From Schizochytrium sp. TIO01 (taxonomy: Eukaryota; Sar; Bigyra; Thraustochytrida; Thraustochytriidae): a stretch of DNA of 64,000 nt. The first letter of the stretch is position 1; every line of letters starts with the position of its first letter. The stretch is from contig SMSO01000004.1 of the NCBI GenBank assembly GCA_004764695.1, forward strand, positions 833,501 to 897,500, in the 5' to 3' direction. The notes beneath the pieces were generated by a model. It was not told where the DNA came from and ran no database searches. It saw nothing but the letters and a program-made list of their open reading frames with translations. Made by a program: the position numbers and the translations under genes. Shown piece by piece: positions 20,321 to 45,659 of the stretch.

Positions 20321-22236
20321 TTAGCGACAAGATAGAATAACCAATTTTGATCCAGGTCTGTTGGGACGATCTATTCATGCTCAAGTTCTGACAAGGAATG
20401 CTTGAAGAAGGAAGTTAAGACCAATCACATGTATTTGCAGGTCTTGACAAGGCTATTCTTATTCGAGCGACCACCTTAAGATGAGATCAATGCGTGCATG
20501 CGCGCATTATGATCTGTTGTCTTCCCAACATATACGATTATTTAGGCAGCAACTTTCGCCACAGTCAATCAAGAACTAACTAACAAACTAAGTTTAACTT
20601 TGATTTTGGTTTGTTAAAAATCTAACGAAGGATCCTTCACAAAGGATAGATACCGTCTCAAACTCTGCATCATCCCTTGCAATCATTTTGTCACTTGCAC
20701 CAACCTCGGCTATGCCAAAGTCAATTACCCACACCGCCGCTTCTTTGTCGTTTCTTACGGCTTGCCGTACTGATAAGGCAAAACCTTGTGCTTTGAACGA
20801 CACGGTGGTGGTATACAAGGTAGCTGAACGCTCTAGAGCAGGATTTTGTTCTGAAATCACCAAGAGTCAAACATGTAATTTATAAAACCATCTTCATTTG
20901 AATTCTTGGTAGTTTGGCCTCTAAATTTCTGGCTAATTTGCTCATTTACTCGAATATGTGATGGTTTAATGCAGCTATCATGCTCTATCTAAATTCCCTT
21001 CACAGAACTGGGAGTCTGTTATTATACCACCTCACACATGAAATAATAACACTTTTCAAATTGTGGTTTTTTCAAACTTTGCGAGTGATATCCAATCAAC
21101 AAACCTACTATACATGTAGGCCTTCGAACTTTCCTGGCTAATTAATTAATTATTATCATGAATTAATGTTATGTAGTTATTACAAAACGATTCAATGTGA
21201 GTCATATAATTCCTCTAACTGATGGTCCTCGAGTCAGCATGACATATCAAACCCTCTGTAACTTGGTATTACTTCTCTTTTGTCTTTTCTTTTCGGGCTC
21301 CTAATTTAGTTACTGCATATGTGCTCGAAGCAAGCTATTATTCCTATCTAACAGCTTTTTGCTCGTTTCAACTCGCACATCGAACATTTGTATGCTAATT
21401 AGAAGTAAGCAAAATCTGCGTTAGCTGTAGGATAGTGGCCGAGTCTGTTAAGGGTTTCCATTACCGACAACATCAAAATCGTGCATGACGCAAGACACAC
21501 CAACCCCATGACACCAAGCAATCTCATTGGTCAGGACGAACATCCATTTAGGGTGTGTACCCTCTCTCTCATATTCTTCATCAAATTGCTCTCTTTTTTT
21601 TATTTTTCTTCCTAATATTTCCCTTGCCAGATCTTTTTCAGTTACGCCTGACCATCATATTCTGACCTTTGATGGGATCCTGTTTGTTGATGCGAGTGAT
21701 GGGGTACGAAGATGGGTTCCTCTGATTCATTGAGCTATATAACCGAATTGTAGGTCTAGTAGTCTATATGTGCTTGCACTTTTAACCGGAATTGTTAGTA
21801 CTTTTAAGAGAATAAAAACAAAAGATGGGGCCAGGGAGTCATTTGCCGACAGAGGACGCAAAAAATTGAGTTGAGATTTTTGCTGTGAGTCAAGTACCGA
21901 TGACACCATCACTCCGAAGGTTCAGATGGTGTCGCAATCCGCAATTATACCAGTGGACTATTTTCTCAAGGGCCTTGGCCATTTTGCATCGCATGAAAGC
22001 AAAGCGGAATTGCCCGAGCCTTCTTTATAGCAGAGGCTTCGCCTGTACTTGACGTATTGACCTTTTTTATTTCAAACTAGGTTATACAATAGCATCGTTC
22101 TGCTTCGTTTTGTCGTTCTGCTTCGTTTTGTTCTCTTTAGCGTCACCAAAATCTGCGTCTAGAATTATTCGAAGTACAATCCTGTTTTGATAGTAAGGAG
22201 TAAGCCCGAAATTCTTCGAAGGTGAAAAGTATCGAA
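20321..22236. promoter_or_regulatory. 1.9-kb AT-rich region upstream of the polyketide synthase
   Basis: No coding frame with a recognisable domain. It contains an A-box-like tRNA fragment without a B box near 21431-21450 (rejected as a gene), several A/T runs and, ~105-140 bases before the synthase ATG, a perfect tandem 18-bp duplication (listed separately). It presumably holds the kinase terminator and the synthase promoter. Confidence 0.45.
22096..22131. repeat. Perfect 2 x 18-bp direct repeat upstream of the synthase
   Basis: Two adjacent identical copies of CGTTCTGCTTCGTTTTGT (22096-22113 and 22114-22131), about 105 bp before the ATG. Could be a 5' UTR or promoter element; function unknown. 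Confidence 0.85.
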
Positions 22237-25200
22237 ATGATGAGTTTTTCAATCCGTCATGCCACTGATGAAGATCTTCCTGCGCTGCAACATCTGCAGC
22301 AGTTTACGAATCCGAGCTTTCAAGTCTCTGATGGAGAGCTCTTGCACCGAGTTAAGCTGAGTCATGAAGCAGGGGGTGCCCTTGTACTACTCGTTCCCCG
22401 CGCAGAGCTCGATGACAGCTCTGAAAAGGAACATAAAAGCAGAAGCAGTAGTCTCGAAGGGGAAGAGATTCAGACAGCTCAGGTAGACGATGACAGTAGT
22501 ATAGAATCTACTATTAGTGCAGGAGGTTCGTCTGAATTTCGCATAGCTGGCGTTCTGTATTATGTTCGACGGCCCGATAGGGACTGCGAAATACTTAGAT
22601 ATGATCAAGTTTTTGACCAGTCGAATCCTCTCGCTGATACCATTTATTGGATCCATTTGGTCATTGACCCGCAAAGCCGTTCGTTGCTTGACCAATTTCA
22701 CAAAGCAGCATGCAGATACTGCTTTGAAGAGCTTTGTGCCGATCGAATTTGTGCGCTTACGCATTGCAGTGATCCTGTTGAGGGACAAATCACCTCTCTC
22801 GAAACTTTAAAGGAATATATTTCTTCAATGACTCGAACTGATCGGAATCTTTTTCTTCATACTAGCCATGGAGCAAAGTACACGAAGCTGATTCCAGGAT
22901 ACAACCCTCGAGATAGCCGCAATGCTGGATATGCGGTATGCATGGAATATCTCCGCGAGCCTGTGCAGCAGCCAGTGCGTCAGGTACGAACCACTACTGA
23001 GAAACTCTCAGCCCAACAACTTCATGATCTTGTTTGTACAGCACTTGGACGCTCAGAAAACACCAACCTCGATGAAAATCAGCCATGGTTTGACCTTGGG
23101 TTTGATTCTGTCTCTCTCATGGACTTGCATGGAATGATTGAAGCCAACGTTGGACAATCGATGGATGTTTCGTTTTTATTCGCAACCAATACGCTATCAA
23201 AACTCATTCAGGAGCTTGCTGTTGACGAGAAGCTTGTTCAAGACTATGCATCCGAAGTCTCGGAAAAGACGGAGGCATCAGCCCCTACGTCTGATCTTGG
23301 AGTCCTTGGGATTGGCCTTCGTTTCCCCAATGTCGATGATTCCGCGTCCGATTTAGAATCCCTGGAAGCGTTCTCGCATGCTCTTTACAATGATGACTGC
23401 AAACCTGATTCGTATCGACGATTAGTTCAACGTGAAAGATTTAGTCTTGAACTCTTTTCTCGAGGGGTTACGCTGGAGCAAGCTCGGTGCATCCCACTTT
23501 CTCAGCGTGTTGCCCTCGAGGTTTCAATGTCAGCAATTGCGGATGGGCCACCTGGCCTGCTTGATTCGATTAATCGCTGTGTGGGCGTTTTTGTAGGGGC
23601 ATGGGACGGAGGGTGCAGTCAACACCCTAGCGCTGCCTGTTTGCGAGCTTCATCGGCTCACTCCGCTGCCGCATTCTCAAATTCAATTCTTGCAAATCGA
23701 GTTTCGTATTATCTTGATTTGACCGGTCCAAGTGTAGTAGTTGACACAGCTTGCTCAAGCTCTCTTGTAGCTTTGGATTATGCAATGAAGTCAATTGAAG
23801 CAGGCGAGTGTAAGGCTGCCCTAGTTCTGGGTGTAAATATCATTGATGACGAACGCACAGTACTATTACGACAGGGTGGCTTTCTTTCATCTACAGATGC
23901 GTGTCATGCTTTTGATGACCGCGCGGATGGTTATGCAAGGAGTGAAGGTGCAGGGGCTCTGCTAATTGCCCCAATGCAGCTCTCAGAAATTACCACGAGC
24001 TTCACCCGAGCTAAGATTTGTTCTGTGGCTGTTAACCAAGATGGAAAAACCGCTAACTTGCATGCACCTAATCCAAACGCCCAGTCTAATTTGATTCGCA
24101 AAGCATGCGCAAAGGCAGCAATAGACCCTATGTGCGTAGCCTTTGTCCAGACGCATGGCACTGGAACCCGCCTGGGGGATCCTATTGAAGCCGCTGGCCT
24201 ATACTCTGCATTAACTGCAGCCTCTCAACGCTCGAGGCCACTTTATCTGGCGTCAATCAAATCGCAATTTGGGCACCTCGAAGGAGCTGCAGGTATGATT
24301 GGTCTCATTTCAACAATTGTTTCGTTGCAAACACAAGAATTACATCCGAATCGGCGTCTCTGTCAACGCAACCCCGCCATTCGATTTAACGAATACCAAA
24401 TGGAACCGGTACCTCAAGAAAGCCCAGTTGATCTCACACCCTTCACGAGAGAGGGTGGAAAATTGATTGCTGGTGTGTCCTCTTTTGGTTTTGGCGGTAC
24501 AAACGCGCATGCACTCCTTCAAGCATTTGGTTCACGAATTTCTCAAAAGAGTATCTGTTCTCGCAAGCTTATTAATTGGAATGAAGACGCTCGAGTTATC
24601 CCTTTCTCGCCGGCACTCGAGGAGCCCTTAGATCAGTTTTATTCTGACAAGATTATGTTGAAGCTAGAAGATCACAAAGTAGGTACCTTGAAGCTTATCC
24701 CGGGATCATTTTGGGTTTCTCTGCTCTCTCAGCAATATCCAGGCTGTTATATTGAGCAGCTGGAGTTTCTAGCAGCAACTACTCTCCCTGTACCGTCAAA
24801 TTGGAGTTTAACATTGAGACAAGCTACTCACAAAGCTTACCTTGTTGACATGACAGGCAAAAACCTTTGTGCAGCAACGTTTGCACCAATGCGTTCAAGA
24901 CCAGAAGAAACTAAGTCCCTCAAAGAAGCAAGAGAGCAGTGTGCTGAGCCGATAGATCTTCGATCATTTTATGCAGAACTAGGAAATCAATACGGCCCAC
25001 ACTTCCAAGCTATGCGGGATGCTTGGAAAGATTCGAATGGAACAATTGTTCTCGCTCGTCTTGAGGTAAATGTCAATGAAGTGGAAAATAATCATGGAGC
25101 ACGTTGCCTCAGTCAAGCTGTAATTATCGATGCTGCAGCTCATGCTTGCTTCTTAACGCTAAATAAAGGCCAAGGAGAAGTCGCATCCTTACCTCACTAT

Positions 25201-28200
25201 GCAAAAGGATTTGGTTCGTTTTGGTGCAGCGCAGACTGGATTGAGAGGGACCTAGCATCAATTTCCTGGTGGTGCTTGGTGACGAAGAGCAAAAGCTCAC
25301 TCCAATTCGACTGGAAACTTTTTTCAACAGACGGCCAAATCGTCATGGATGCTTGTGATTTCACAATGGCATGCTCTCGTAATACTCGGTCACAGCCTCA
25401 GAGTGAACTAACCTTTGAAGGTGTAACTTGTGCAAATATAGTGTGGGAACGTTTATCAGAGAATCAATTAGGCGCACTACGCAAAGTGCCTGCGGACAAT
25501 GTCATCGATACGCCAACATGCGAAAAACTTCACGACTGCATTGTTGGAATATTGAAGCAGGATGAGAGGCCCCCACGCATTTGCATCAGGATCAATGAGC
25601 CTGGACAGGAAGGTTATGCTCGCTCATTAAGACTTGAAATGCCAGATTGGCAAATTCATACTTGGTGTGGTCCTCGCAGTCAAGACGTACAAATCCTAGA
25701 AAGTGAACACGAACTTTTGTGCACCGAAGACGGCCACATAGCTGTACGTCGTCTCAGGAGAATAAAGAATTCATTGAATTCTGAAGAAGCACAATTGCTT
25801 GTGGCCGTGAAAAAGAACGCCACGTATATTATTACGGGTGGAGCTGGGGCACTTGGAAGAAAATTTGCGGCAGAACTAATTAAAAGGGGTGCTGGAAAAG
25901 TTTTATTGCTAGGGCGCGCATCAACTTTCTCCGCGTCAAAGTCCGAACTTACAGAAAAGATCGAATACCAGCAATGTGATATTACTGATAGAAACGCTCT
26001 GAAGAAGATTGTCAAACCTGTGACGAACAATCTTGCCGGTGCTTTCCATTGCGCTGGAGTGCTGCGAGACGCAACTATTCCCAACCTTGAAGACTTTGAT
26101 GAAGTCTTTGCTGGCAAAGTAAGCGGAGCAGAATGTCTAATCCAGGTTTTCCATGAACTCCATGTGGAACTCGACTTTCTTATTTTGTGCTCTTCAGTGA
26201 CTGCATGCTTCGGAAGTGCAGGTCAAGCAAATTATGCCGCTGCAAATTCTGTACTTGATGCCCTGGCGGAGCAAAATGCTTTTAGGAACACTACTAGTAT
26301 TCAATGGGGCCCATGGCAGGGAGGAAGCAGTATGGCCGCCGCTTCCTTGGCGCGCTGGCAGCGACTTGGACTTAACCCAATGGATCCAAAAATGGCATGC
26401 AATAGTCTGTTTTCCTTACGAAAAAATTGTGGACCTGTTATATGTATCACTCACCTTGACCATACTGCTCCTGGGGCGCAATCAAGCTGGGCCAAAAGTC
26501 CACTTGCTTGTGATCTTGTTACGGAATCAAAAAATCTCAGCCAGGTCAACTGTAGCACCGACATTAATTTCAATGGATCGTTCTCTCAGCAAATTGTAAA
26601 AACTGTTGCCTCATCATTCTTGAACACTGAGAACTTAGTACTAGAGACACCATGGAGAGAAGCTGGTTTAGATTCACTTGCAATGGTTGAGTTTAAGAAT
26701 ATGCTCCGAACCGCTATCCCAGATCACATTCCTATGCGTGATACCGTACTCTTTGACTATCCAACGCCTCAAGCTCTTATCGAATATCTTTCAGAGTTTG
26801 ACGAAGCTAGAAATCCACACACAGAGAGTTCTGGAAAGCAAACTACCATAGAGCCGAACTTTGATCAATTAGGTTCAACAACTCTCGAAGTCACGGGTGC
26901 TGCGTGTCGCTTACCTGGCGGAGTAGATTCCCCCGAGTCATTCTGGAGATTACTAGAAGCAGGTACCGACACAATGACTGACATACCCATAGGGCGGTTT
27001 GATTGGGAAAGCAGCGCAGACCGTATTTATGCACGAAAGGCGGCATTCGTTGATCATGTAGAGCGCTTTGATTACTCACGATTTAATATCACTGAAGTTG
27101 AGGCTTCCAACATGGACCCACAACAACGATTAGTTCTTCAGGTTGCAGCTGACGCGATTGAACAGGCTGATCTTCAACCTAATACCCGTGTTGGTGTATT
27201 TGTGGGTGTTATGACGAATGACTGGGCACGAATGATGGATCCAGCAACACCGACTGCATATTCTGCAGCAGGACAGATTCCATGCATCCTCGCAAATCGT
27301 GTATCTTACATACTTGGTTTGCAAGGACCATCGATGGCGATCGATACTGCTTGTAGCTCGGGACTAGTCGCTCTTGACACTGCGGCAGCATCGATTCAAA
27401 GAGGCGACTGCAATGCAGCTTTGGTGATAGGTGTAAATCTAATTCTTGATCAGGGTGTTCATAGTGAAGAATGCGCTGCGCGTATGCTATCTACAGTTGG
27501 TCGATGTGCAACATTCTCTGAGGATGCTGATGGCTACGCTCGCGGAGAAGGCTGCGTGGCCTTGGTGTTGGAGCCAGGAAGCGCATTGAGCAGCAATCGA
27601 AAATCATGGGGAACAATTCTAGGCACTGCTGTAAACCAAGATGGTCGCAGCGCAAATCTTACATCTCCAAATGGTCGTGCTCAAGTAGATGTAATTCGCC
27701 GCGCCCAAGCGCGTGCAAAGGTCAGTCCAAGTGATATTTCATACCTAGAAACCCATGGAACTGGCACCCCTTTGGGTGATCCAATAGAAGTCGGAGCGAT
27801 TGTTGATGCTTTCAAAGGGCATAGTCACAAGCTTTGTCTTGGTGCTTTAAAGACACTGATCGGTCATGGCGAGGCTGTGGCAGGCCTGTCAGGCGTTTTA
27901 AAAGCATTGCTTTGTTTGAACCATCGCCGTGTCCCATCAGATTTACACCACCATAAAACGAATCCCAAAATACTTGATATTATAACACCATGGATTCATT
28001 TTCCTCAACATGAGCCCTTTCCTTTACCAGAGGAGCCTATCGCTGGTGTATCAGCATTTGGATTCGGAGGAACAAATGCTCATGTTATCGTTAAAGCGTC
28101 TTTGGCACCGTCTCCGCTAGACTTTCAAAGTGGGTTGTTGTATAACAACACAATATCACGCTGTCCACGTCTTCAGTGGACAAGGGATGAACTGGTGTAT

Positions 28201-31200
28201 TCTGTCGGTTGGGTTACATTGCCGAATGAACAAACCAAGAACTGGGCAAGCCAAAGTAACTCATTTCATATTAAGAGTTATCATGAACTGCAAGAGGTTA
28301 TCTCAACATTTTCTGAAAACGAAACTGTTGAGCTTAACCTTCTGACAACTAGCGCTTCTGTTGCAGCACTTATTCGTTGTCTTCGTCTGAGCAGGCCAAG
28401 ATGGAGCGTAAAGCTTGTTTATATTTCGGCTCCAGAGAGTAAGAATCACGATTTGGATTTACAAAACATGCAGGTTGACTCAAGCGCTCTTGAACAAAAG
28501 ATTGATCAAGATGGAATGATTAAGGTACCACGTTTGCACAAACAGCCAGGATTCCTTCCGTATAGCCTGCGTTTGGAACGTTGTGGTCCTATTCTCCTCA
28601 GTGGTGCATCGGGGGGGCTCGGCACAGCCATTCTGGAAAGTTTACTTAGTGCAGGTGCCACTAAGATCTATGCTATATCTCGTCAAGGAAAGCCCAGTAC
28701 AGAAAAACTACAGCCACTACTTGCAGTAGCGTTATTGTCAGGCGTTCTTGAGTACTTACAATGCGATGTTAGTGTGGAAATAGATGTGAAACAACTTGCT
28801 GAGAAGCTGAACTTTGAAAACATCACAACAGTTCTACATGCAGCCGGAATATTGAATGAGAAATCAATTGATCAGCTGGACGATGAAGTACTAAGTACTC
28901 ACATGAATGTCAAAGTACTTGGCACTCAGAATCTTCTTAGGTACTTTCCGAAGGCTTCCTTTATGGGCTTTTCCTCAACTTCTAGTATATTTGGTATGAA
29001 AGATGCACCAGCATATGCTATGTGTAACGCAGCCATGGAGTTTGAAGTTGACAAGGCTCGGAATCAAGGCCGGCATGCAGTAGCAATTCTGTGGGACCTT
29101 TGGAAAGAAACAGGTATGGCTAGTGACCGTGCTATGGGAAGCGAGCACCGAGGTCTTAGTACACGACGCGGTTGTCAAATCTTGCTTGGTATTTTGCAAA
29201 TTTGGCACGAGCAAGACTCGCATATGCTTGTAATTCTTGCGGCGAACCTCCAGCGCTTACGTAAAACAATTAGCGAACCTGCTCTTCTAGACGATTTAAC
29301 AACAGCTGAGTATGTATCGACCTCACAGTCTGCAAATGTGACACACTTTAAAGCAGCATCAAGCTTACAGCTCACTCTTGCTGACCAAACTTTGGAAACT
29401 TGGCCAAGTTTGATTGAAGAATGGATTTTGAAAAAGTCCAAGCAGCTGCAAGCAAGCCATACTAGTGAAATTGATTCTCTGACTCCTTGGCAGCAAGCGG
29501 GATTTGATTCCCTATCCATGACTGAATTCACTGCTTCTCTAAATACATCGCTTGGGCTGAAAGGCACCATGGACGAACTTTCTGACACGGTTATGTTTGA
29601 TCATCCCAATCCAAACGATCTTGCCAAATACATTGCAGAATTGTACAAGACTACAGCAGCTGCTGCAAGCACACGCACTACTGAACCCCCCATGCGAGAC
29701 ACCAGAACTAAAGGATCAGCAGAGGCAGAGGCAGAGGCTGCTATTGTCAGCATCGCTCTTCGTTTTCCTGGTAGTCGGGAAAATTCAACTCCAGCTGGTT
29801 TTTGGGATTTCTTATGCAGTGGGAAAGATGCTATTGTAAATATCCCGCGAGCGAGAATTCCTGATCTAGCAACGGCACCAGGAGAGAATCTTCATCAAGT
29901 CTATGTTCGCAAGGGTGCTTTTCTACACCCAGATCTTTTCCATGCAGATATTAGCAAGAGTGGGTTGTCGCTCTCAGATGCCGAGTGTGAGATCATTGAT
30001 CCACATCAGCGCCTGTCACTACAGGTTGCAGCTGAAGCACTTGCTTCGGCTGAAAAAACTGGAGCCGATATGACCTGCGTAGGCGTCTTTGTTGGAGCAC
30101 AAAATACGGAGTATATCCTGTCACAGGCTCATAAAGTGAGCACTTATACTGCTACAGGTACAGCGCTCTCCATCATTGCAAACCGCATTTCGTTTGTCTT
30201 TAATCTTACAGGGCCCTCTATGACTGTTGATACTGCCTGCTCGTCATCACTCGTAGCACTGGACGCAGCTTTGAAAGCCCTACATGCAGGAGATTGTACA
30301 AGTGCCTTAGTTCTTGCAGTTGACTTAATGCTCTCACCTCATAGGTTTGAAACAACATGTGCAGCCCAAATGCTTTCTCCCCAAGGTCGCTGTGCAACAT
30401 TCTCTGATCAAGCGGATGGCTACGCCCGCGGTGAAGGCTGTGCAGCCCTAGTAATAACGCTTGATTCAACTTGCAATCTTCCTGCATGGGGGGTTGTTCG
30501 CGGAATTGCCTTAAATCAGGATGGTCGAAGTGCAAACCTCACTTCGCCACGGGGTCCGGCACAAGTTGCCTGTATTGAGCGTGCACTTCAAAGAGCAAGC
30601 CTTAATAGTATTGAAGAAGTGTCCTTTATTGAAGCACATGGTACAGGAACAAAACTTGGCGACCCCCAAGAGATGGAGGCTTTATCAGCAGTCTTTAAAA
30701 CTCGTACGAAACCTTTGCCTGTTGGTGCTGTGAAATCCTCCATTGGTCACCTCGAGGCTGCTGCTGGCCTAGCAGGTATCATCAAATCGCTCTTGTGTCT
30801 CAAAAATGGATCCGTGCCGGCGAATTTACATTGCAATAACCTTAATCCAAGACTTTTGCGGATTCAAGGTCGTTGCCCTCTTGTATTTCCTAAATGCAGT
30901 GTAGAGCTTAATGCAAAGGCAGAAGGCCGTTTGGCCGGAGTATCTTCGTTTGGTTTCGGAGGCACAAATGGCCATGTGGTGCTTTCAGGTGTCTCAGAGG
31001 AACGCTCCTCCCGCGCGGAGATGTGTTTTGTGTCTAAACTTCTTCCTGCTAAAGTGTTCAAGCTCCAGCAACAATTAACAGGGTCTTCGTCGCATGCTTC
31101 GCAACAACGGTGGAAGTTCAAGATGCTCTCGGAGATGACAAACCTGATTCGCAATCATCGTGTGGGCGATCTTTCTGTACTTCCAGCAACTTCTTACATG

Positions 31201-34200
31201 GAAATAGTCCAGCCACTTTTTGAGGGGAAAGCTTTGTCGTTCTCAAATCTTGATTTGCGAAGCATGTACTTTATTCCAGACAATGAAGAGGAATTAGAGT
31301 TTGATGTTACTTATGACCTTTCCAGTGAAATTGTGTCAATCATTTCCTCGAGAGATCATTGTCTACGAGCTCAAATGAACGTCAAAACAAACCAGTCTTT
31401 GGTTTCAAGAAGAGTTGATTTACCTGTGATCCAGCAACGGTGTACCATTGAGCTGCCAGGTGGGGATGACCTTTATCAAGGAGTTGGTAATCAGTATGCT
31501 GGTCCTTTTCGTAGCCTCAAGTTTGCATGGGCGAACCAAGATGGCAGTGAGCTGTTAGGCAAGCTTTCAGTTGATCAAAACGTTGCCCTTGACGTTCTTT
31601 CTTCAGCCTGGCTAGATGCAGCTAGCCATGTTGCATTAGCTGCACTTCAACCTAGTGAGAGAAAACAGCCAGTATACGCTGCAAAAGTTATTGGATATGA
31701 GCTAGCAGATGTTCAAACCAAGCAAAACGCTGCCAAAGATTCCTTTCTCTGGACTTACATCAAACAGGTCTCTCTAAATACCTTTGACATGCAAATTTTT
31801 CGTAAAACAGGTGAGGTATTGGCTGAGGTTCATAACTTTAGCTTTGGGTTTTTCTCACGAGGAGCATCTCTGAATTCCGGGATGGCAAATGAGCAAAACT
31901 TGTTGTGGAAAGATAACTGGGAGAGTATACTTACCACGAGTAATAGCTCGGATTTCGTCTCAAATGAGAAGATGGAAATTCTGGATGTGAATACGACTCC
32001 GAAACTTCTCACCCAGCTGACCCATATACTAAGCCAACATTCTGCTGCTTCCTTGTTGATTCCGATTCGAGACCCTGGGCAGCGGGGATTGGTTGCCTGT
32101 GTCCGCCGAGAATACCCGCATGCCACACTTTCCACTATTGGCGGTGAACAAATTGATTTGCCAACTCTTCAGAATATCTTGCTCATCGCACAGGGTCTTC
32201 CAGGAAATGTTGATCTACGGTTGAAAAGTGAAGACCGGGACTCGAGCAACCCGAATTTAGAAATATTGCGAGGGCTCGAGCCAATAATTACTTGCGCTGA
32301 TGAACTCCCCCTTGTGCAAATCATCAAAGGTGCCACCTACATTATTACTGGTGGTGCTGGGGCACTTGGACAACATTTTGGCTCATATATTGCTGCATAT
32401 GGTGGTATTGTTATCCTTCTTGGGCGAACTAAACCTGAACACGAAATCCCGGAAGGTTGTACATTTTTAAGTTGTGATATAACTTGCAATGATGCAGTGA
32501 AGGAGGTCGTTCGCCGCTGTAAAGATTTAAGAGGCATTATTCATTGTGCTGGACTCCTCAAAGACGCTACTCTTCAAACTGCCAGCGTAGCAGACTTTGA
32601 CATAATCTCTGCACCCAAGATCTTCGGAATTAAAACCCTTTTGCAACAAGCAGATTGCAAGTCCTTGGATTTTTGTGTGCTTTTCTCCTCGATAGCGGCA
32701 TCGGTTGGATCTGCCGGGCAAAGCATTTATGGGTCAGTAAATGCAGAGCTTGACATGCTCGCACATGAACTTCATTGTAGCGGAATGAATGTTGTAAGCA
32801 TTCGATGGGGCCCCTGGGCGGGTGCTGGAATGGCATCTTCTCTAACAGAGAAGTGGAGACGTATGCAGCTAGTCCCTTTGAAACCAGAGGATGCAGTGCG
32901 AGAACTCTTTAATATTCCTCGAGGGATGCCTGTGGTAACTATTTGTGGATTCATTCAAGAGAACAAAGAAATAAAACTTGAGAAGCAAGCGAGAGAATCA
33001 ATAGATTACCAATCACCCCGTACGAAGGAAGAACTAATTAACTTGGTTTTGAACATCGCGCAAGAAGTAAGCCCTGACCATTCTTCATTCGAACTGGATG
33101 ACTCCTGGAGAGAAGCTGGGCTAGATAGTCTTGCTATGGTTGAATTTCGAAACGTTCTTCAGAGTCGTTTAGGTGGCTCCTCTATTATTGAAATTGAAGA
33201 CACAATACTCTTTGACTACCCAAATGCATCGTTGCTTGTTGAGTGGTTGACAGAGAAACTCCCAGTTCAAATCCAGGGTGAAACTACAGGCGCTGCATCT
33301 CCTCAACAAAACGATGACGATTCTCATATTCAATCGTGGCTTGTTACAGGGGCTGCATGTCGCCTTCCAGCTGGCGTAGACTCTCTTGAGAAATACTGGC
33401 AGCTTTTGTGCTCTGGAGAACATGCCATGCAAAAAATTCCCAAGTCGAGATTTGATATTGAGGCTGCCTTCGATGCAGATCCATCAACACCATTTAAATC
33501 CTATGTTGACCAAGCAGCTCTCGTTGACGACATATACTCATTCGATAATAGTAAGTTTGGAATCTCCGATCAAGAAGCCATTCGCATGGACCCTCAGCAA
33601 AGACTTGCCGTGGAGTGTGCATATGAAGCAATGGTTAGCGCTGGCCTTGCCGAAGAACCCACGAAAGCCGGTACAAAACTTTCTTTGCGAAACATTAAAA
33701 TGTCGGAAGTTGGAGTCTATGTTGGAATGATGACGAATGACTGGGCTAAAATGAATCACGGTGCCCCTTCACCATTTACAGCCACAGGACACTCGCCCGC
33801 AATTGCAGCAAATAGGATTTCTTATCTTCTAGGGCTGACTGGCCCAAGTATGACGGTTGACACCGCCTGCAGCTCTTCAATTGTTGCACTTGACGCTGCT
33901 TGCCGGGCCTTAAGCAGTGGTGATTGTGACGCTGCAATTGTAATTGGGGTCAATCTCATTCTGACGTCAGATCTTTTCATAGAAGAATGCGCTGCACGAA
34001 TGCTTTCTCCCCGTGGTTTCTGCTCAACATTTTCAGCTGAAGCTGATGGATATGCCCGGGGTGAAGGGTGTGTTGCTTTAGTGTTACAGCGAAAAAAACA
34101 CAATCATGTAGAGGACTCCCAAAGAGTATTAGGAGAAATCTTAGGTGTTGCTGTGAACCAAGATGGTCGCAGTGCAAACATTACATCCCCAAATGGGCGT

Positions 34201-37200
34201 GCACAGGAAGAGGTTATTCGTATGGCACTGAAGCGAGCCCATGCTACGCCACAACAAATTGCGTATGTTGAAACACATGGTACTGGAACCGCGCTAGGAG
34301 ATCCACTTGAAATTAGCGCCCTAGCAAGAGTATTTGCTGACCGCGAAACTCCTCTGATCATAGGTGCTGCAAAGGCATCTATTGGACATACTGAAGGGGC
34401 ATCTGGTTTGGCTGGACTTCTCAAAGCACTCCTTTGTGTGTATTTTAAAGAAGTGCCTGGCCTGGCAAGTTTAGCGAAAAAGACCGATCTTAGTCCTAAA
34501 GTGCGCAACGCTGCTCTGGAACACATGGTGTTTCCTGTTCGTGGAAATTTGCAAAGCCTCCCCAGCAATTCTCTTGTAGGACTTTCAAGCTTTGGCTTCG
34601 GAGGAACAAACACGCACACAATTCTGAGAGCTTCTTCAGGTAAAGCTAAGTTTGATTTGTCTCTAGCATCTAGGTCAATCGTATGGACACGAAAAACATT
34701 TTTACCTCGTGTTACGAGTGTCAAGTCCCATGGTGGGTGTAACAAAGTGCAGGAAACGTCTACGCGAGTCGAGAACCAACTTAATCCCTCGAATCAGAAA
34801 GACGTTCCACAAAGGCATGCCCTCCTATCAGCGGGTTCGCTACCGGAAAATGAATGTCCAACCATGTTTGGGGTTAAATCAAAGCTCCCAACATACGCAC
34901 TTTTGGATCTTTTAATTTGGTGTCAACATGACACTCATAAAAACACAAGTGGCTACTTGACTTGGGCCTCACTAAAGCTCCAATCTAGTACAGTAAAGCC
35001 CTCACATAAGGTCAAGGTTGGCATGTCAAAGATTACAAGTGGAAGCACCATATTATGTGAGTTTGAAAATGTAACACAATTGCAGCAGTCTCTGTTTGAT
35101 GATGGGACGCTTCCAATTATCGTTTCGCAGAATTTTAATTGGGTATCAAGATCACCTGCATGGCTGAAACATTGTCTGGCTCAAGTAGGATGGCGTAAAC
35201 CAGACTGGCTTGTTACCGATGTGAAGTCTTCTCTAGACGAAAGAATGCTGCGGCTAACATTTTCAAAGCCACTTCCTCGGCCGAGCGGGTACTTCTGGGT
35301 TCCCGAGCTACTGGGCGAATGCGTTATGGCACTTGGATTAGTTCAGGCCAGGAGGCACGAGGTAGACAGTCAATCTAGAGTTGATGTCCCTCCATCGCTG
35401 AGTTTTGTAGAAACAATGGTTTGCTCACTTTCCAATATATTATTCCACGTGCAAGATTCTTCATTCGTTGGGCCGCTGGAGTGCACCATTGAAGCAACTC
35501 GTGGCCTTCTTCACATTACTAGCTGTGAAACTGGTCACGTACTTTTTTATCTTAAGGGTGCTCGCTGCGAGTTTGGAAAGGAAATTGGAGAAACAACCTC
35601 CTACGTCCGGCGTTGGATTCCCCATGTGAGGCCATCATTTCCCCGACAGATCACTGGCGATAGCAGATTCACCATGAACGATGTCAAGAAGTATGTACAT
35701 CCTCGGGAGGTGAAAGACAGGGTGGGAGATGAGGCGCTAGAGGTTTACTGCGCACATTATATTAGGCGCGCCCTTTCAATGCTGCCAGCAGGATTTATAC
35801 CCGCCGAACCGCATCTCCAGTTCTTATTAAATAGATGGAAAGATCAATATTCCAATGCTCAAAGTTTTGAGAGTTTGAAAGATATTGAACCCACAGGGGT
35901 GGAATACGAATTTGCTCAGAATTGTGTAGAAGCTCTACCTGAAATCATGCAAGGAAGGCGACCCGCTTTGGATGTCTTATTTTCTAAGCCGGATCTTACA
36001 ACGCGACTGTATAGTGAGTCAACTCCTTCCCTCACCTGCAACAACGCAATTGCACAAGCTGTAAAGGGCATTGCTCAGTCAAAGTATTCATCTGAGGGCG
36101 ATTCAAAGGTTCTCCGCATCCTTGAGTTGGGCGCAGGAACAGGAGGCACAACTATGCATTTGGTCAAATTTTTGAAGTTGCATCAAACGGAATACTTCTT
36201 CACAGATATTTCAGATTACTTCTTACGGCAAGCAGAAGAAACATTCTCAGCATACTCAGACATGATGCGATACACGCTCTTGAATGTCGAAAATTCCCTT
36301 CATGAACAAGGATTTGCAATGCACCAATTTGATGTGATTATTGCATCCAACATCATCCATGCAACACAAGAGCTTCATGTAACTCTTGGTCATATTGCTG
36401 ACCTTTTAGTTCCTGGAGGTTGCTTTCTATTAAATGAAGCCACAATATCAACCGCGTTTCTAGATGCCACGTTTGCGCTCACAAGTGGATGGTGGCGATT
36501 CGCAGAAGCTAATGATCCGGCTCGACCAGAACGTCATGGCCCGCTTCTCTCTCCACAGAAATGGTTTTCTGTCCTAAAAGAAAATGGATTCACACAAACG
36601 GAAGTCATTCATGAGGCTGCTCAAGGTCAAGCTGTAATTTGTGGCATTCGTAATTCAGTGTTTTCGACTCCAACCATATCAACATCGTATTCAAATGAAC
36701 TTTGCGTTATTGGGAATGGCTCACTTGCTAATGCCCTTAAAGCTTCATCCGACGGTCATGAAGGAGTTGAGCCAGTATATGTTTTGGTACCTCCTGCTGA
36801 CAACAGCTTTGAATTGCAGAAGTTCTTTGATGTCCTAAAGTCCTTAGCTTCAGGAAAACTTCGTACCAGTAAATTAATTATTGTGACGCGCCGCGACAAA
36901 AACCCATGGCATGGTGCTCTTTGGGGAATCACGAGAAGCATGATGCTTGAGAGTATAGACATTCAGCAACTAATTTGCATGGATATCGATGACCACACTT
37001 CATTTCCAAGCGTTGTCCAAGCGGTGCATTATGAAATTAATGCGCCACAATGCCCCTCGCATATCCTGCAACTCCGTTTCATTCGTGGAGAACGGCATGA
37101 AGCAGAGCTCCATGGATTGAAAGCTATCGCATCTCCTAGTGCTTCGAAATTGCGAGGAACGTATGTAATTACTGGTGGTCTTGGAGGTCTCGGGCTATTG

Positions 37201-39159
37201 ACGGCTGCAATCCTACTGCGCCAAGGTCTGAGAAATTTGGTTCTTGTATCACGATCCGGTAAACTCCGACGAGATGACGCAAGCGCCTGTATCGAGAAAC
37301 AGCTCCTTGAGGAGATCAAAAGCTACAACGATGCAACGGTGCGCTTTATCGCATGTAATGTCCGTTCTCGGGAATCATTAGAAGAAAACGTTTTTGATAT
37401 TATTGATAGAGATACCAAATTGCCTCCAGTGAAGGGCATTGTACACGCGGCTGGTATTTTAAGTAACCATTCATTGTCAGCCATGGACTGGTCAGAAAAT
37501 TTCTCTCCAGTTTATGAAACAAAAGCAACATCGGCATGGAATCTTGATATAATTGCACGTGAACGACAATACGAACTGGACCATTTTGTTTTGTACTCAT
37601 CAGCTGCAAGTACGTTTGGATCTGCTGGTCAGTCGAATCATGCAGCTGCAAATGAGGTTATGGACGCAATCATAGAGAAGCGGTGCTTGAATGGTCTCTG
37701 TGGAGTTTCTGTCCAATGGGGCGGCTGGGATGATCTCGGAGCTGCCGTGGCTTCTAGTAAAGCTCAAAGCACCATTTTGGCACGTGGTATGGGGCTCATT
37801 TCCATTGAAAATGGCACTCGATCAATTATAGATTTGTTCTCTTCCGCATTTCAGGAGCCTGTCTTTGGTGTAAGTATTGTATTTTGGGACTCTTTCGGGC
37901 CTCAGCAGGTTGATCGTTTGTTTCTCAAGAGATATGCGAAACTACCAACGTCTGAAAAAGGTAGGAAGGAAGCTCTTGCAACAGAAGATACAACGACGTT
38001 TGAGCATTCTTCATCTTTAAGTGCCACAACTGAACTTGTTGCAAGTCTACTTCAGGACTGTGGTATCGCTGACATGGATGTACCCCTGTCTGATCAGGGG
38101 CTGGACTCTCTCACTTCTATTGAGTTAATAGGCTTGGTTCAACAGCACAAAGGCGTTAAGCTCTCGCCCACGTTCTACTTAGATTGTGTAAATGGTCACG
38201 GACTGGCTCGTATGCTTGAAAACTTGTGCAATTCATGCTCCACAACCTCCAACAAGGCTTCCCAAAACATTGGAGATTCAGTACCAGCAACAGCAACAAG
38301 CAACAAGCAATCAACTCTAGAGAACTCTTTGTGGATCGAGCCTTTATTTGCTCCGACAATGAGATTGTACTGTTTTGCGTATGCTGGAGGCCACCCCAAC
38401 GTCTTTCGTGAATGGACATTTCACATTCCTGCAAACGTACAGATTTGTCCAATCGCAATGCCAGGGTATGGCAAACAAACCAACCGCGCGTTCTGGAAAT
38501 CTGTGAGGGAGCTTTCTGCAAACATCACCTCTTCAATTCCCACAGATGTTCCCTTTGCCCTCGCAGGTTCTTGCCTTGGAGCTATCATATCATTTGAGGT
38601 TGCAAGATCCTTGCGAAATGCTGGAAAGCGTCTCCCTTTACACCATTTTGCCATAGCTTGCAGTGCACCACAGGACTACTCTCGAGCATTACGCCTGCTC
38701 TATAGTAACCGTCTCAAAGAGAACGCATTTTTCGTACCCTCTGAAGAATCGGATGCTGCGGTGAGATTTCAAGACCTGTCGATTCAAGAGCGGGACGACA
38801 CTGTTCGTGACCTACATCAGCTCGGTTTCTTCAAAGATGAAGAAACTTTAGCTAATTTAACTCAGAATCAGGTCTATTTTGAGTACGTTATGGCACAGAT
38901 TGCAGGACAAATGCAACTTGCGGAACGATATGTATACGACCAAACAGTCCAGCCGTCCAATATACCTGTTACTGCAATCAGTGGAAAGCTTGATGACACA
39001 ATTCCTGAAGACTGGCCAAAGTCATGGGAAACGCATACACGAAAAGCTAGCTCGTTTCGACATGTTGAAATCAAGGATGGTGGGCACTATATTATTCAGA
39101 CGCATGTGCAGGAAGTGACAGCGATCATTTTAGAAGATCTTTCTAAATACCACTTATAG
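22237..39159 (+). CDS. Giant acyltransferase-less (trans-AT type) modular type I polyketide synthase
   Basis: One exon, 5,640 residues, first ATG at 22237. Order: GNAT-like domain (~1-240) with a Ser/Glu-rich insert; ACP0 (S291). Module 1: KS C506/H640/H680; DH H813 and D965-x3-H969; KR GGAGALG 1201-1207 with S1320/Y1333; ACP S1480. Module 2: KS C1706/H1840/H1877; KR GASGGLG 2123-2129 with S2247/Y2260; ACP S2425. Module 3: KS C2668/H2801/H2838; DH H2974 and D3127; KR 3372-3378 with S3485/Y3498; ACP S3631. Module 4: KS C3878/H4014/H4051; a DH-like stretch without catalytic residues (~4165-4470); C-methyltransferase with ELGAGTG (4630-4636); KR GGLGGLG 4980-4986 with S5122 but His5135 for Tyr; ACP S5291; thioesterase with C5446 (GSCLG), Asp5586/5587, H5617. 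KSs are followed directly by DH or KR, with no ~300-residue AT. Cytosolic; needs an external malonyl transferase and PPTase. Confidence 0.95.
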   Translation: MMSFSIRHATDEDLPALQHLQQFTNPSFQVSDGELLHRVKLSHEAGGALVLLVPRAELDDSSEKEHKSRSSSLEGEEIQTAQVDDDSSIESTISAGGSSEFRIAGVLYYVRRPDRDCEILRYDQVFDQSNPLADTIYWIHLVIDPQSRSLLDQFHKAACRYCFEELCADRICALTHCSDPVEGQITSLETLKEYISSMTRTDRNLFLHTSHGAKYTKLIPGYNPRDSRNAGYAVCMEYLREPVQQPVRQVRTTTEKLSAQQLHDLVCTALGRSENTNLDENQPWFDLGFDSVSLMDLHGMIEANVGQSMDVSFLFATNTLSKLIQELAVDEKLVQDYASEVSEKTEASAPTSDLGVLGIGLRFPNVDDSASDLESLEAFSHALYNDDCKPDSYRRLVQRERFSLELFSRGVTLEQARCIPLSQRVALEVSMSAIADGPPGLLDSINRCVGVFVGAWDGGCSQHPSAACLRASSAHSAAAFSNSILANRVSYYLDLTGPSVVVDTACSSSLVALDYAMKSIEAGECKAALVLGVNIIDDERTVLLRQGGFLSSTDACHAFDDRADGYARSEGAGALLIAPMQLSEITTSFTRAKICSVAVNQDGKTANLHAPNPNAQSNLIRKACAKAAIDPMCVAFVQTHGTGTRLGDPIEAAGLYSALTAASQRSRPLYLASIKSQFGHLEGAAGMIGLISTIVSLQTQELHPNRRLCQRNPAIRFNEYQMEPVPQESPVDLTPFTREGGKLIAGVSSFGFGGTNAHALLQAFGSRISQKSICSRKLINWNEDARVIPFSPALEEPLDQFYSDKIMLKLEDHKVGTLKLIPGSFWVSLLSQQYPGCYIEQLEFLAATTLPVPSNWSLTLRQATHKAYLVDMTGKNLCAATFAPMRSRPEETKSLKEAREQCAEPIDLRSFYAELGNQYGPHFQAMRDAWKDSNGTIVLARLEVNVNEVENNHGARCLSQAVIIDAAAHACFLTLNKGQGEVASLPHYAKGFGSFWCSADWIERDLASISWWCLVTKSKSSLQFDWKLFSTDGQIVMDACDFTMACSRNTRSQPQSELTFEGVTCANIVWERLSENQLGALRKVPADNVIDTPTCEKLHDCIVGILKQDERPPRICIRINEPGQEGYARSLRLEMPDWQIHTWCGPRSQDVQILESEHELLCTEDGHIAVRRLRRIKNSLNSEEAQLLVAVKKNATYIITGGAGALGRKFAAELIKRGAGKVLLLGRASTFSASKSELTEKIEYQQCDITDRNALKKIVKPVTNNLAGAFHCAGVLRDATIPNLEDFDEVFAGKVSGAECLIQVFHELHVELDFLILCSSVTACFGSAGQANYAAANSVLDALAEQNAFRNTTSIQWGPWQGGSSMAAASLARWQRLGLNPMDPKMACNSLFSLRKNCGPVICITHLDHTAPGAQSSWAKSPLACDLVTESKNLSQVNCSTDINFNGSFSQQIVKTVASSFLNTENLVLETPWREAGLDSLAMVEFKNMLRTAIPDHIPMRDTVLFDYPTPQALIEYLSEFDEARNPHTESSGKQTTIEPNFDQLGSTTLEVTGAACRLPGGVDSPESFWRLLEAGTDTMTDIPIGRFDWESSADRIYARKAAFVDHVERFDYSRFNITEVEASNMDPQQRLVLQVAADAIEQADLQPNTRVGVFVGVMTNDWARMMDPATPTAYSAAGQIPCILANRVSYILGLQGPSMAIDTACSSGLVALDTAAASIQRGDCNAALVIGVNLILDQGVHSEECAARMLSTVGRCATFSEDADGYARGEGCVALVLEPGSALSSNRKSWGTILGTAVNQDGRSANLTSPNGRAQVDVIRRAQARAKVSPSDISYLETHGTGTPLGDPIEVGAIVDAFKGHSHKLCLGALKTLIGHGEAVAGLSGVLKALLCLNHRRVPSDLHHHKTNPKILDIITPWIHFPQHEPFPLPEEPIAGVSAFGFGGTNAHVIVKASLAPSPLDFQSGLLYNNTISRCPRLQWTRDELVYSVGWVTLPNEQTKNWASQSNSFHIKSYHELQEVISTFSENETVELNLLTTSASVAALIRCLRLSRPRWSVKLVYISAPESKNHDLDLQNMQVDSSALEQKIDQDGMIKVPRLHKQPGFLPYSLRLERCGPILLSGASGGLGTAILESLLSAGATKIYAISRQGKPSTEKLQPLLAVALLSGVLEYLQCDVSVEIDVKQLAEKLNFENITTVLHAAGILNEKSIDQLDDEVLSTHMNVKVLGTQNLLRYFPKASFMGFSSTSSIFGMKDAPAYAMCNAAMEFEVDKARNQGRHAVAILWDLWKETGMASDRAMGSEHRGLSTRRGCQILLGILQIWHEQDSHMLVILAANLQRLRKTISEPALLDDLTTAEYVSTSQSANVTHFKAASSLQLTLADQTLETWPSLIEEWILKKSKQLQASHTSEIDSLTPWQQAGFDSLSMTEFTASLNTSLGLKGTMDELSDTVMFDHPNPNDLAKYIAELYKTTAAAASTRTTEPPMRDTRTKGSAEAEAEAAIVSIALRFPGSRENSTPAGFWDFLCSGKDAIVNIPRARIPDLATAPGENLHQVYVRKGAFLHPDLFHADISKSGLSLSDAECEIIDPHQRLSLQVAAEALASAEKTGADMTCVGVFVGAQNTEYILSQAHKVSTYTATGTALSIIANRISFVFNLTGPSMTVDTACSSSLVALDAALKALHAGDCTSALVLAVDLMLSPHRFETTCAAQMLSPQGRCATFSDQADGYARGEGCAALVITLDSTCNLPAWGVVRGIALNQDGRSANLTSPRGPAQVACIERALQRASLNSIEEVSFIEAHGTGTKLGDPQEMEALSAVFKTRTKPLPVGAVKSSIGHLEAAAGLAGIIKSLLCLKNGSVPANLHCNNLNPRLLRIQGRCPLVFPKCSVELNAKAEGRLAGVSSFGFGGTNGHVVLSGVSEERSSRAEMCFVSKLLPAKVFKLQQQLTGSSSHASQQRWKFKMLSEMTNLIRNHRVGDLSVLPATSYMEIVQPLFEGKALSFSNLDLRSMYFIPDNEEELEFDVTYDLSSEIVSIISSRDHCLRAQMNVKTNQSLVSRRVDLPVIQQRCTIELPGGDDLYQGVGNQYAGPFRSLKFAWANQDGSELLGKLSVDQNVALDVLSSAWLDAASHVALAALQPSERKQPVYAAKVIGYELADVQTKQNAAKDSFLWTYIKQVSLNTFDMQIFRKTGEVLAEVHNFSFGFFSRGASLNSGMANEQNLLWKDNWESILTTSNSSDFVSNEKMEILDVNTTPKLLTQLTHILSQHSAASLLIPIRDPGQRGLVACVRREYPHATLSTIGGEQIDLPTLQNILLIAQGLPGNVDLRLKSEDRDSSNPNLEILRGLEPIITCADELPLVQIIKGATYIITGGAGALGQHFGSYIAAYGGIVILLGRTKPEHEIPEGCTFLSCDITCNDAVKEVVRRCKDLRGIIHCAGLLKDATLQTASVADFDIISAPKIFGIKTLLQQADCKSLDFCVLFSSIAASVGSAGQSIYGSVNAELDMLAHELHCSGMNVVSIRWGPWAGAGMASSLTEKWRRMQLVPLKPEDAVRELFNIPRGMPVVTICGFIQENKEIKLEKQARESIDYQSPRTKEELINLVLNIAQEVSPDHSSFELDDSWREAGLDSLAMVEFRNVLQSRLGGSSIIEIEDTILFDYPNASLLVEWLTEKLPVQIQGETTGAASPQQNDDDSHIQSWLVTGAACRLPAGVDSLEKYWQLLCSGEHAMQKIPKSRFDIEAAFDADPSTPFKSYVDQAALVDDIYSFDNSKFGISDQEAIRMDPQQRLAVECAYEAMVSAGLAEEPTKAGTKLSLRNIKMSEVGVYVGMMTNDWAKMNHGAPSPFTATGHSPAIAANRISYLLGLTGPSMTVDTACSSSIVALDAACRALSSGDCDAAIVIGVNLILTSDLFIEECAARMLSPRGFCSTFSAEADGYARGEGCVALVLQRKKHNHVEDSQRVLGEILGVAVNQDGRSANITSPNGRAQEEVIRMALKRAHATPQQIAYVETHGTGTALGDPLEISALARVFADRETPLIIGAAKASIGHTEGASGLAGLLKALLCVYFKEVPGLASLAKKTDLSPKVRNAALEHMVFPVRGNLQSLPSNSLVGLSSFGFGGTNTHTILRASSGKAKFDLSLASRSIVWTRKTFLPRVTSVKSHGGCNKVQETSTRVENQLNPSNQKDVPQRHALLSAGSLPENECPTMFGVKSKLPTYALLDLLIWCQHDTHKNTSGYLTWASLKLQSSTVKPSHKVKVGMSKITSGSTILCEFENVTQLQQSLFDDGTLPIIVSQNFNWVSRSPAWLKHCLAQVGWRKPDWLVTDVKSSLDERMLRLTFSKPLPRPSGYFWVPELLGECVMALGLVQARRHEVDSQSRVDVPPSLSFVETMVCSLSNILFHVQDSSFVGPLECTIEATRGLLHITSCETGHVLFYLKGARCEFGKEIGETTSYVRRWIPHVRPSFPRQITGDSRFTMNDVKKYVHPREVKDRVGDEALEVYCAHYIRRALSMLPAGFIPAEPHLQFLLNRWKDQYSNAQSFESLKDIEPTGVEYEFAQNCVEALPEIMQGRRPALDVLFSKPDLTTRLYSESTPSLTCNNAIAQAVKGIAQSKYSSEGDSKVLRILELGAGTGGTTMHLVKFLKLHQTEYFFTDISDYFLRQAEETFSAYSDMMRYTLLNVENSLHEQGFAMHQFDVIIASNIIHATQELHVTLGHIADLLVPGGCFLLNEATISTAFLDATFALTSGWWRFAEANDPARPERHGPLLSPQKWFSVLKENGFTQTEVIHEAAQGQAVICGIRNSVFSTPTISTSYSNELCVIGNGSLANALKASSDGHEGVEPVYVLVPPADNSFELQKFFDVLKSLASGKLRTSKLIIVTRRDKNPWHGALWGITRSMMLESIDIQQLICMDIDDHTSFPSVVQAVHYEINAPQCPSHILQLRFIRGERHEAELHGLKAIASPSASKLRGTYVITGGLGGLGLLTAAILLRQGLRNLVLVSRSGKLRRDDASACIEKQLLEEIKSYNDATVRFIACNVRSRESLEENVFDIIDRDTKLPPVKGIVHAAGILSNHSLSAMDWSENFSPVYETKATSAWNLDIIARERQYELDHFVLYSSAASTFGSAGQSNHAAANEVMDAIIEKRCLNGLCGVSVQWGGWDDLGAAVASSKAQSTILARGMGLISIENGTRSIIDLFSSAFQEPVFGVSIVFWDSFGPQQVDRLFLKRYAKLPTSEKGRKEALATEDTTTFEHSSSLSATTELVASLLQDCGIADMDVPLSDQGLDSLTSIELIGLVQQHKGVKLSPTFYLDCVNGHGLARMLENLCNSCSTTSNKASQNIGDSVPATATSNKQSTLENSLWIEPLFAPTMRLYCFAYAGGHPNVFREWTFHIPANVQICPIAMPGYGKQTNRAFWKSVRELSANITSSIPTDVPFALAGSCLGAIISFEVARSLRNAGKRLPLHHFAIACSAPQDYSRALRLLYSNRLKENAFFVPSEESDAAVRFQDLSIQERDDTVRDLHQLGFFKDEETLANLTQNQVYFEYVMAQIAGQMQLAERYVYDQTVQPSNIPVTAISGKLDDTIPEDWPKSWETHTRKASSFRHVEIKDGGHYIIQTHVQEVTAIILEDLSKYHL

Positions 39160-39679: not shown

Positions 39680-40963
39680 TTATCCCTCCTGAGCGACAGG
39701 ATCATTCGCAGGCTTTGCTGCTGCTGGTTTGGTGGATGATTTTGACGGCGCAGGCATATCCATAGCTGCAAGCGATTTGCGCATTCGTGCAACAGCTTTA
39801 ATACCATTTACAGCGTTCTTGAACTTGCGTGTAGCATTATATTCCCGAAGTTTGTCCAGGTTTGCTGTAAGGTTGGAGTTGGAGTCGCCTACGAGCCATT
39901 TGTGTTTGAGTACCTCTGAGATAGTAGGACGCTCGACCGGATTTGTGACAAGCATAAAGTCGATAAAATCCTTTGCATCTTTGGAAACATTGTCCCAATA
40001 TGGCGAGGGAAACTCGTACTTGCCACGCTTAATTTGACGAAATAACTCGGCATTATTTGGGTGATAGAACGGCGGAAACCCACAAAGAAGAATGTAGGCA
40101 ATAACACCAAAGCTCCAGACGTCGACCTTGAAATCATACTTGTCGCCCTGAAGGATTTCTGGTGCGACGTAGCCAGGGGTACCACATGCTGTCTTCATGA
40201 AGGGCTCTTCCTTACAAACTTTAGCGAGACCAAAATCTGCCAGCTTGACAACAGCATCATCTGTGTTGTCCGAGTACAGAAGATTTTCGGGCTTAAGGTC
40301 ACGATGAACCACGTCCTGGGAGTGACAGTACTCTAGAGCTTCTGCAATACGGGTCAGGTCTCGACGTGCCATACGTTCTTCATAGTGCTCCTTCTCCACA
40401 ATTCTATCAAACATTTCTCCGCCCATCATTAGCTCCATCACAAGATATACATTTTTCTTGGAACGATATGTTTCATACAGTTTGCAAATGTTTGGATGAT
40501 CCATATCATATAGGATCTGCATCTCAGTTTCAAGAGCTGCAGCATCCTCTGCTTTCATTGTCAGCAGGTTCATAATTTTCACAGCTCTGACAACATTTTT
40601 GTCTTCCTTAAGGGTGCAAATTTTAACTGTTGCAAAGCTGCCGGTGCCCAATGTCTTACTAACACGATATCTTTTCGAAAACTCCTGCATATAGAATGTC
40701 ACATAGAATACAGCAAATTTAATCATTGTTGATTTCATTGAACACAGTTAGTTTAACCCTTATTTCATGCTCAAGTTATTGCACTAGTGTTGGCGATCAG
40801 TCCAATTGCCAATTCAGCCTCGCGCGTTGCTCCCTTTGTATGAATTGGCAAGTCCTCGAGTGCATTTATTTTTCGTAGATACCTGCTGTTTGACCCCAAC
40901 CTCAATCGGTCCACACAAATTGCTGCAAGAACTTACATCCGTGTTGAAGAAGAAGGAAGGCAT
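39680..40963 (-). CDS. Calcium/calmodulin-dependent protein kinase (CaMKI-like), two exons
   Basis: Ser/Thr kinase of the CAMK group. Exon 1 is 40963-40937 and encodes MPSFFFNTD; exon 2 is 40684-39680. Removing the 252-bp intron gives 343 residues. The first 18 residues of the uninterrupted exon 2 frame (hydrophobic, starting at 40738) are therefore probably intron. Kinase landmarks: glycine loop GTGSFATV, VAIK-type lysine in VRAVKIM, HRDLKPENLL, DFG in ADFGLAKV, the activation-loop threonine in ACGTPGYVAPE (the CaMKK site in CaMKI), and a DVWSFG helix. The C-terminus (ATRKFKNAVNGIKAVARMRK) matches the CaMKI autoinhibitory/calmodulin-binding helix, followed by an Ala/Pro/Lys tail. Regulation by Ca2+/calmodulin and an upstream kinase is expected for the family. 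Confidence 0.88.
40685..40936 (-). other. Intron of the CaM kinase gene
   Basis: Minus-strand donor GAT|GTAAGT and acceptor TATGCAG|GAG. Both exons join at codon boundaries, and the resulting N-terminus runs smoothly into the kinase domain (NTD-EFSKRYRV). Confidence 0.75.
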
Positions 40964-45394: not shown

Positions 45395-45659
45395 CAGTCT
45401 CCTCTATTACAACCCTCACGCCCACACCATCGCTTCTGTCTAATCCAAGTGACCACCTCCCCCGTAGGTCCTCCGGTACCATAAAATAGTACCTAGTGTA
45501 AATCTCTATTTGCTATTCCGTCCTATTACTTTGTGATCACTGCAGTAGTAGAAAGACGAAACCAAAGCGAAAGCGTCATTTCGAAGCTTGCTGCGCTTTG
45601 CTGGGTGGCATTGAAGGAGGTTGATTGTCAGTGTGCGAAGCAAAGACCGTCTTCTGAAA

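Follow-up and report, generated by a model that had tools for sequence, protein, structure and literature searches.

The window, the whole stretch of 64,000 nucleotides that we analysed, encodes a genuine eukaryotic modular polyketide synthase (PKS) without acyltransferase (AT) domains, a type already known in outline. We read it as a nuclear-encoded PKS of a thraustochytrid-like protist in which all ATs, together with the KS-AT linker, were lost inside a cis-AT KS lineage common to a Vibrio plasmid PKS, and we give this reading a probability of about 0.7. New in our analysis are a CurA-type GNAT-like starter, a thioesterase (TE) with a Cys nucleophile, the Tyr to His exchange in KR4 and a candidate free-standing loader, as well as the likely route to AT loss.

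The gene is a single open frame on the + strand, from the first ATG at 22237 to the stop at 39159. Counted from stop to stop (22204-39159), the frame has 5,651 codons and zero internal stops. The window covers positions 833501-897500 of contig C3 (2,322,396 bases) in an assembly of 64,063,054 bases and 37 contigs. G+C content across the gene (0.45-0.47) lies inside the range of the window (0.40-0.51). Eight of the ten longer flanking frames that we scanned with Pfam gave a match, including a pfkB kinase, a protein kinase, a Lon protease and an ABC transporter, and no partner biosynthetic gene was apparent among these ten. The initial annotation had placed the synthase within a eukaryotic contig next to a kinase gene. 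Both points were borne out, the second by a kinase domain at 39683-40747 on the - strand (PF00069, E 1.3e-78). Contamination or a chimeric assembly was ruled out by the single frame within a 2.32-Mb contig, the eukaryotic-looking neighbours and the same domain order in the thraustochytrid Mn4. A viral origin was rejected as well, with identity of at most 32% among the 80 viral-contig loci listed (best E 3e-48 at 29%). Another frame of the window, at 45615-46403, has an AAA_26 domain (E 1.1e-24) and is presumably dethiobiotin-synthetase-like.

Pfam and motif scans gave the domain order GNAT-ACP1 / KS1-DH1-KR1-ACP2 / KS2-KR2-ACP3 / KS3-DH2-KR3-ACP4 / KS4-x-MT-KR4-ACP5 / TE, all on the + strand. 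The Pfam tally was four KS, four KR and five PP-binding domains, one methyltransferase region and one thioesterase. The motifs DTACSS, HGTGT and KxxxGH each occur four times and in register, which makes four intact KS triads, and the five ACP motifs are intact. The single chain thus consists of repeated modules that run from a KS through modifying domains to an ACP, as in a modular type I PKS. The four complete Cys-His-His sets and the multimodular layout described before were therefore confirmed, but the earlier domain list had overlooked the N-terminal GNAT-like domain (22237..22977). This domain is followed by ACP1 (23014..23211; GFDSV; PF00550, E 4.1e-11).

Module 1 contains KS1 (23284..24597; Pfam, motifs), DH1 (24664..25368; HKVGTLKLIPG; PF14765, E 1.1e-12), KR1 (25819..26319; PF08659, E 6e-43) and ACP2 (26596..26790; GLDSL; PF00550, E 1.3e-8). 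KS1 has an eroded N terminus and has diverged strongly, with an end branch of 1.79 in the 82-row tree described below, and its Cys-His-His set is intact. Module 2 is formed by KS2 (26872..28173; Pfam, motifs), KR2 (28591..29109; PF08659, E 1.7e-30) and ACP3 (29464..29634; GFDSL; PF00550, E 6e-7), and module 3 by KS3 (29725..31056; Pfam, motifs), DH2 (31147..31842), KR3 (32332..32820; PF08659, E 1e-34) and ACP4 (33046..33249; GLDSL; PF00550, E 1.6e-7). DH1 scored above the Pfam cut-off. DH2 did not reach them (PF21089, E 1.1e-4; PF14765, E 4.3e-4, against curated cut-offs) and is assigned by its motif, HRVGDLSVLPA, which is kept. The limits of both were set with a DH profile seeded with the two window DHs, so this profile is no independent proof of DH2. 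In module 4, KS4 (33325..34698; Pfam, motifs) is followed by a stretch without detectable AT or DH (34699..35877), in which Pfam found no match and the DH profile was negative; its single-sequence structure model was of low confidence (mean pLDDT 37.7). Next come the C-methyltransferase (MT) domain (35878..36615; LELGAGTGG), KR4 (37156..37734; NHAAAN; PF08659, E 9.4e-48) and ACP5 (38032..38208; GLDSL; PF00550, E 2.9e-6). The TE (38362..39129; PF00975, E 8.3e-18) closes the chain.

No module has an integral AT, as expected of an AT-less PKS served in trans. At E 0.01, PF00698 gave zero matches in all six slices of the PKS. Our own AT profile, made from 60 ATs that are linked to a KS in the fetched loci, gave none in the window frames of at least 200 codons, so the AT absence first seen by motif held in both profile scans. 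Thraustochytrid PUFA synthases carry an integral AT and tandem ACPs. A PUFA synthase was ruled out, since Pfam found neither in this chain.

The same order without AT has been published for another thraustochytrid. Song et al. 2018 list in their Table 4 the 'PKS-like' Mn4_04057 of strain Mn4, with the domains PP-KS-DH-KR-PP:KS-KR-PP-KS-DH-KR-PP:KS-MT-KR-PP-TE (PMC6050695). Compared by this published domain order it equals the window PKS, except that the listing does not include a GNAT-like domain. The contrast that the initial annotation had drawn with thraustochytrids, known for PUFA synthases with their own AT, is thus dated. In that account Mn4_04057 is weighed solely as a candidate for DHA synthesis and has a low expression (FPKM 3.52), and ten 'trans-AT' genes are tabulated as well (PMC6050695).

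To place the four KSs we collected relatives from the best 80 loci of a genome-contig scan, and plasmid searches added L115-L118. The resulting set had 174 KS matches, 133 of which covered more than 80% of the profile; removal of seven duplicate-locus rows (L008-L010, L013-L016) left 126. In a quick tree of these 126 rows, the window KSs and four KSs of Vibrio nigripulchritudo form one group (SH-aLRT 99). It is nested with support 99 in a group of 44 rows (33 cis, 7 AT-less and 4 short), and most of the remaining AT-less rows fall into a 30-row group with a weaker support of 84. Two smaller sets of 82 and 36 rows were picked by name and mostly omit the outer clade. The 82-row tree, in which the bootstrap had not settled, gave 99/84 for the window KSs and 100/99 for their union with Vibrio. 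Its trans-AT KSs lie beyond a 100/98 branch with 39 rows, five of which are cis (three of these being far outgroup rows), so this is a split and not a clean clade. With LG+C20 and 36 rows, the window and Vibrio KSs were joined at 98/99 and the 14 trans-AT rows formed one clade (98/99), while the monophyly of the window KSs was weak (83/40). Within our sample the four KSs sit with the Vibrio plasmid PKS on the cis-AT side. The trees hold no eukaryotic KS beyond those of the own genome, so the link to Vibrio may reflect sampling. In 394 genomes of a single order, searched with at most four candidates scored per listed genome, nothing was closer to KS2 than 43%.

Solved structures led to a cis-AT system as well. 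The curacin PKS is a multi-gene cyanobacterial cis-AT system, and its CurA, CurL and CurJ are the best single-domain solved relatives of the window GNAT, KS and MT. CurL was the best single-KS PDB chain for all four KSs (KS2 340, KS4 316, KS3 285 and KS1 219 bits). Its chain also matches the AT query; CurL carries an AT, unlike the window modules. The next single-KS match was the AT-less PKS 4qyr, with 291 bits for KS2 and 263 bits for KS3. We rejected a special tie to PDB 7zma, which has two KS domains with 251.8 bits each for KS2; for KS1, KS3 and KS4 the rejection is an inference from 7zm9 and 7zmc, which are single-KS chains.

The region behind the KSs was examined with a KS-AT linker profile built from 19 cis rows. 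An initial narrower motif missed 50 of the 126 rows, and the wider motif used for the count made 97 rows countable, including the cis rows L095 and L096 in which it is probably misplaced; of the other 29 rows, 23 lacked it and 6 were of insufficient length. The linker was present in 53 of 65 cis rows, seeds included, in 18 of the 29 AT-less rows (those of the window and Vibrio are among the 29) and in 1 of 3 short rows. It was absent from all four window modules and all four Vibrio modules, two of which still carry an AT. Besides Vibrio there are ten linker-free cis rows, all in the outer 44-row clade of the 126-row tree, and four of them score just above the cut-off of 0.001. Five AT-less rows other than those of the window and Vibrio also lack the linker (L066, L067, L069, L081 and L026 of the own genome), so a missing linker does not by itself prove kinship. 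The short and uncounted L055 and L068 were linker-free by eye.

Among the matches listed, the Vibrio nigripulchritudo plasmid PKS (NZ_AP027051.1, L115) has the closest outside KS, with 48.1% to KS2 and 47% to KS4. It resembles the window PKS in that two of its modules have no AT and all four lack the linker, and it takes the sister position in the trees. It differs in being annotated as a hybrid NRPS/PKS, in having an AT in two of four modules and in its spread over several genes. A further difference is its last protein, which carries flavoprotein-like and FSH1 hydrolase domains.

AT loss inside the cis-AT lineage is the most likely explanation of our results. As a more tentative extension, to which we give somewhat less than an even chance, the protist and Vibrio synthases would represent a separate AT-less origin in this lineage. 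The linker would have been lost first and the AT afterwards, module by module, and the Vibrio PKS, with the linker gone from four of four modules and the AT from two of four, would be a surviving intermediate. The line would also have crossed between marine bacteria and protists. If our reading is true, AT loss in modular PKSs also took place on a path independent of bacterial trans-AT synthases, and the AT-adjacent linker is dispensable too. The synthase would then offer a testable system for the recognition of linker-free modules by a free-standing transacylase, in relatives of industrial oil producers.

The strongest alternative is a protist-wide family of AT-less PKSs whose ATs were lost within eukaryotes, with the Vibrio PKS being derived or convergent. 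It overlaps with the preferred reading, so the odds of the two are not exclusive, and we consider it a real possibility but short of probable. For algae, Shelest et al. 2015 report multimodular PKSs devoid of ATs and suggest that the AT was displaced (PMC4661987), and AT-less modular PKSs also occur in the stramenopile Chrysophaeum (PMC10366177). These synthases are, like the window PKS, eukaryotic and modular, with modules that lack an AT (PMC4661987, PMC7073580, PMC10366177). However, they are described as starting with adenylation-type domains, as in Chrysophaeum (PMC10366177), or with a single N-terminal AT, as in haptophytes (PMC7073580), and not with a GNAT, and the absence of MT is called prominent in most (PMC4661987, PMC7073580, PMC10366177). 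Our searches of an open-licence library, judged by title and opening of the abstract, listed no paper on a thraustochytrid or algal PKS that starts with a GNAT. The Vibrio cluster, with an AT in two of four modules and the linker missing from all four, can also be counted for this alternative.

The starter domain was recognised by homology. The first 258 residues of the frame matched CurA (2ree, E 3.7e-7), 7uci (E 9.5e-6) and GphF (6mfc, E 0.005) in a phmmer search of the PDB, mainly across the C-terminal half. Pfam gave no GNAT match for this N-terminal domain, and its single-sequence structure model was of low confidence (mean pLDDT 40.0). When the domain was aligned with bacterial relatives from three loci (L116, L066 and L117), the Thr in ALTHC and the His in FLHTSHGA proved conserved. 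This Thr/His pair has catalytic roles in CurA. By analogy, the CurA/GphF-like domain of the window is a putative malonyl-ACP decarboxylase. For the related LynB1 it was proposed that an AT loads malonyl and that the GNAT then acts as a decarboxylase, in the way observed for CurA and GphF (PMC10127204).

The synthesis could proceed in the order of the domains. A malonyl-CoA:ACP transacylase acting in trans would load malonyl onto all five ACPs, and the GNAT-like domain would decarboxylate malonyl-ACP1 into an acetyl starter. Modules 1-4 would add four C2 units, with KR and DH processing according to the domain order. Module 4 would add the alpha-methyl and probably leave the beta-ketone, since KR4 has a His where 8g7w has a Tyr in the alignment. 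The MT of this module has CurJ as its best PDB relative (5thy, E 3.5e-46). The TE, with a Cys (GSCLG) where the thioesterase 3qmw has a Ser in the alignment, would free a chain of about C11. We predict a 2-methyl-3-oxo-7-hydroxy-deca-4,8-dienoyl chain from the domain order. A Cys nucleophile is a feature of beta-lactone-forming thioesterases. Together with the GNAT start, this TE provides concrete chemistry open to assay.

The initial annotation had presumed a malonyl transferase encoded elsewhere, and free-standing transacylase genes and PPTase domains were indeed found in other parts of the genome. PF00698 has seven matches genome-wide. One of them, the transacylase on contig C32 (1470772-1471656), lies in a 429-codon frame with the first Met directly before the domain. 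Its best PDB matches are malonyl-CoA:ACP transacylases (2c2n, E 3.7e-53), and DisD is matched as well (E 6.5e-38). Judged by its sequence, this free-standing malonyl transferase without an evident transit peptide is the best candidate loader, though an upstream exon may supply a leader. The transacylase on C34 is in two pieces and has a mitochondrion-like leader, with 7 K/R and 2 D/E in 55 residues. C35 has a divergent free-standing AT of 318 codons. PPTase domains gave three matches, one of them within a 4,151-codon frame on C13 that also matches KS and AT. This frame and the KS and AT frames on C4 are probably the fatty acid and PUFA synthases.

The AT of such a megasynthase (the C13 KS-AT-PPTase frame, the C4 frames or a C35 AT-KS-ACP frame) might load the PKS instead of a dedicated transacylase. 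These ATs are present in the genome and sharing of ATs across systems is plausible. Nevertheless, two genes of the genome encode free-standing transacylases of the malonyl type. The one on C34 has the mitochondrion-like leader, and the leaderless one on C32 appears to have no other obvious client, which makes loading by a megasynthase AT rather unlikely. The C35 frame has 1,947 codons (L022:7199-10000 and L023:1-3042) with an AT match to the first part of the profile, a KS and an ACP. Behind the ACP we noticed a methionine-synthase-like stretch by eye, without Pfam match, and a FAD/NAD-binding region. The divergent free-standing AT is encoded on the opposite strand, about 2 kb beyond this frame.

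A decaying or silent gene without product is improbable. The His in KR4, the eroded KS1, the stretch between KS4 and MT without domain match and the low expression of the Mn4 counterpart (PMC6050695) would fit decay. Against it stand a stop-free frame of 5,651 codons, the four intact KS triads, the five intact ACP motifs and the same domain order in Mn4 (PMC6050695).

The initial annotation had favoured a multimodular trans-AT line that had been transferred or domesticated. The window PKS shares with bacterial trans-AT PKSs the modules without AT and the presumed loader in trans. Those systems can also begin with a GNAT, hold C-methyltransferases within their modules and end in a TE, and the GNAT relatives in L066 and L117 stand ahead of AT-less KSs. 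In the 82-row tree, the KS behind the remaining GNAT relative (L116) clusters with cis rows. Joining the window KSs to the trans-AT rows was rejected by AU tests whose groups were defined after inspection of the first tree, marginally with 82 rows (p 0.0437 for all four KSs, 0.0279 for KS2 and KS4) and more clearly with 36 rows (p 0.00184). The residual linker is kept in 18 of the 22 AT-less rows outside the own genome and the Vibrio cluster and in none of the four window modules. Since 4qyr, which speaks for trans-AT kinship of KS2 and KS3, is a close second and the 82-row trans-AT group includes cis rows, our confidence in AT loss inside the cis-AT lineage is slightly reduced. The KS trees, the AU tests, the missing linker and the best single-domain relatives CurL, CurJ and CurA nevertheless make the transfer of a bacterial trans-AT line very unlikely. 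On the Vibrio plasmid (2-21160) we also observed that the annotated gene breaks fall inside modules.
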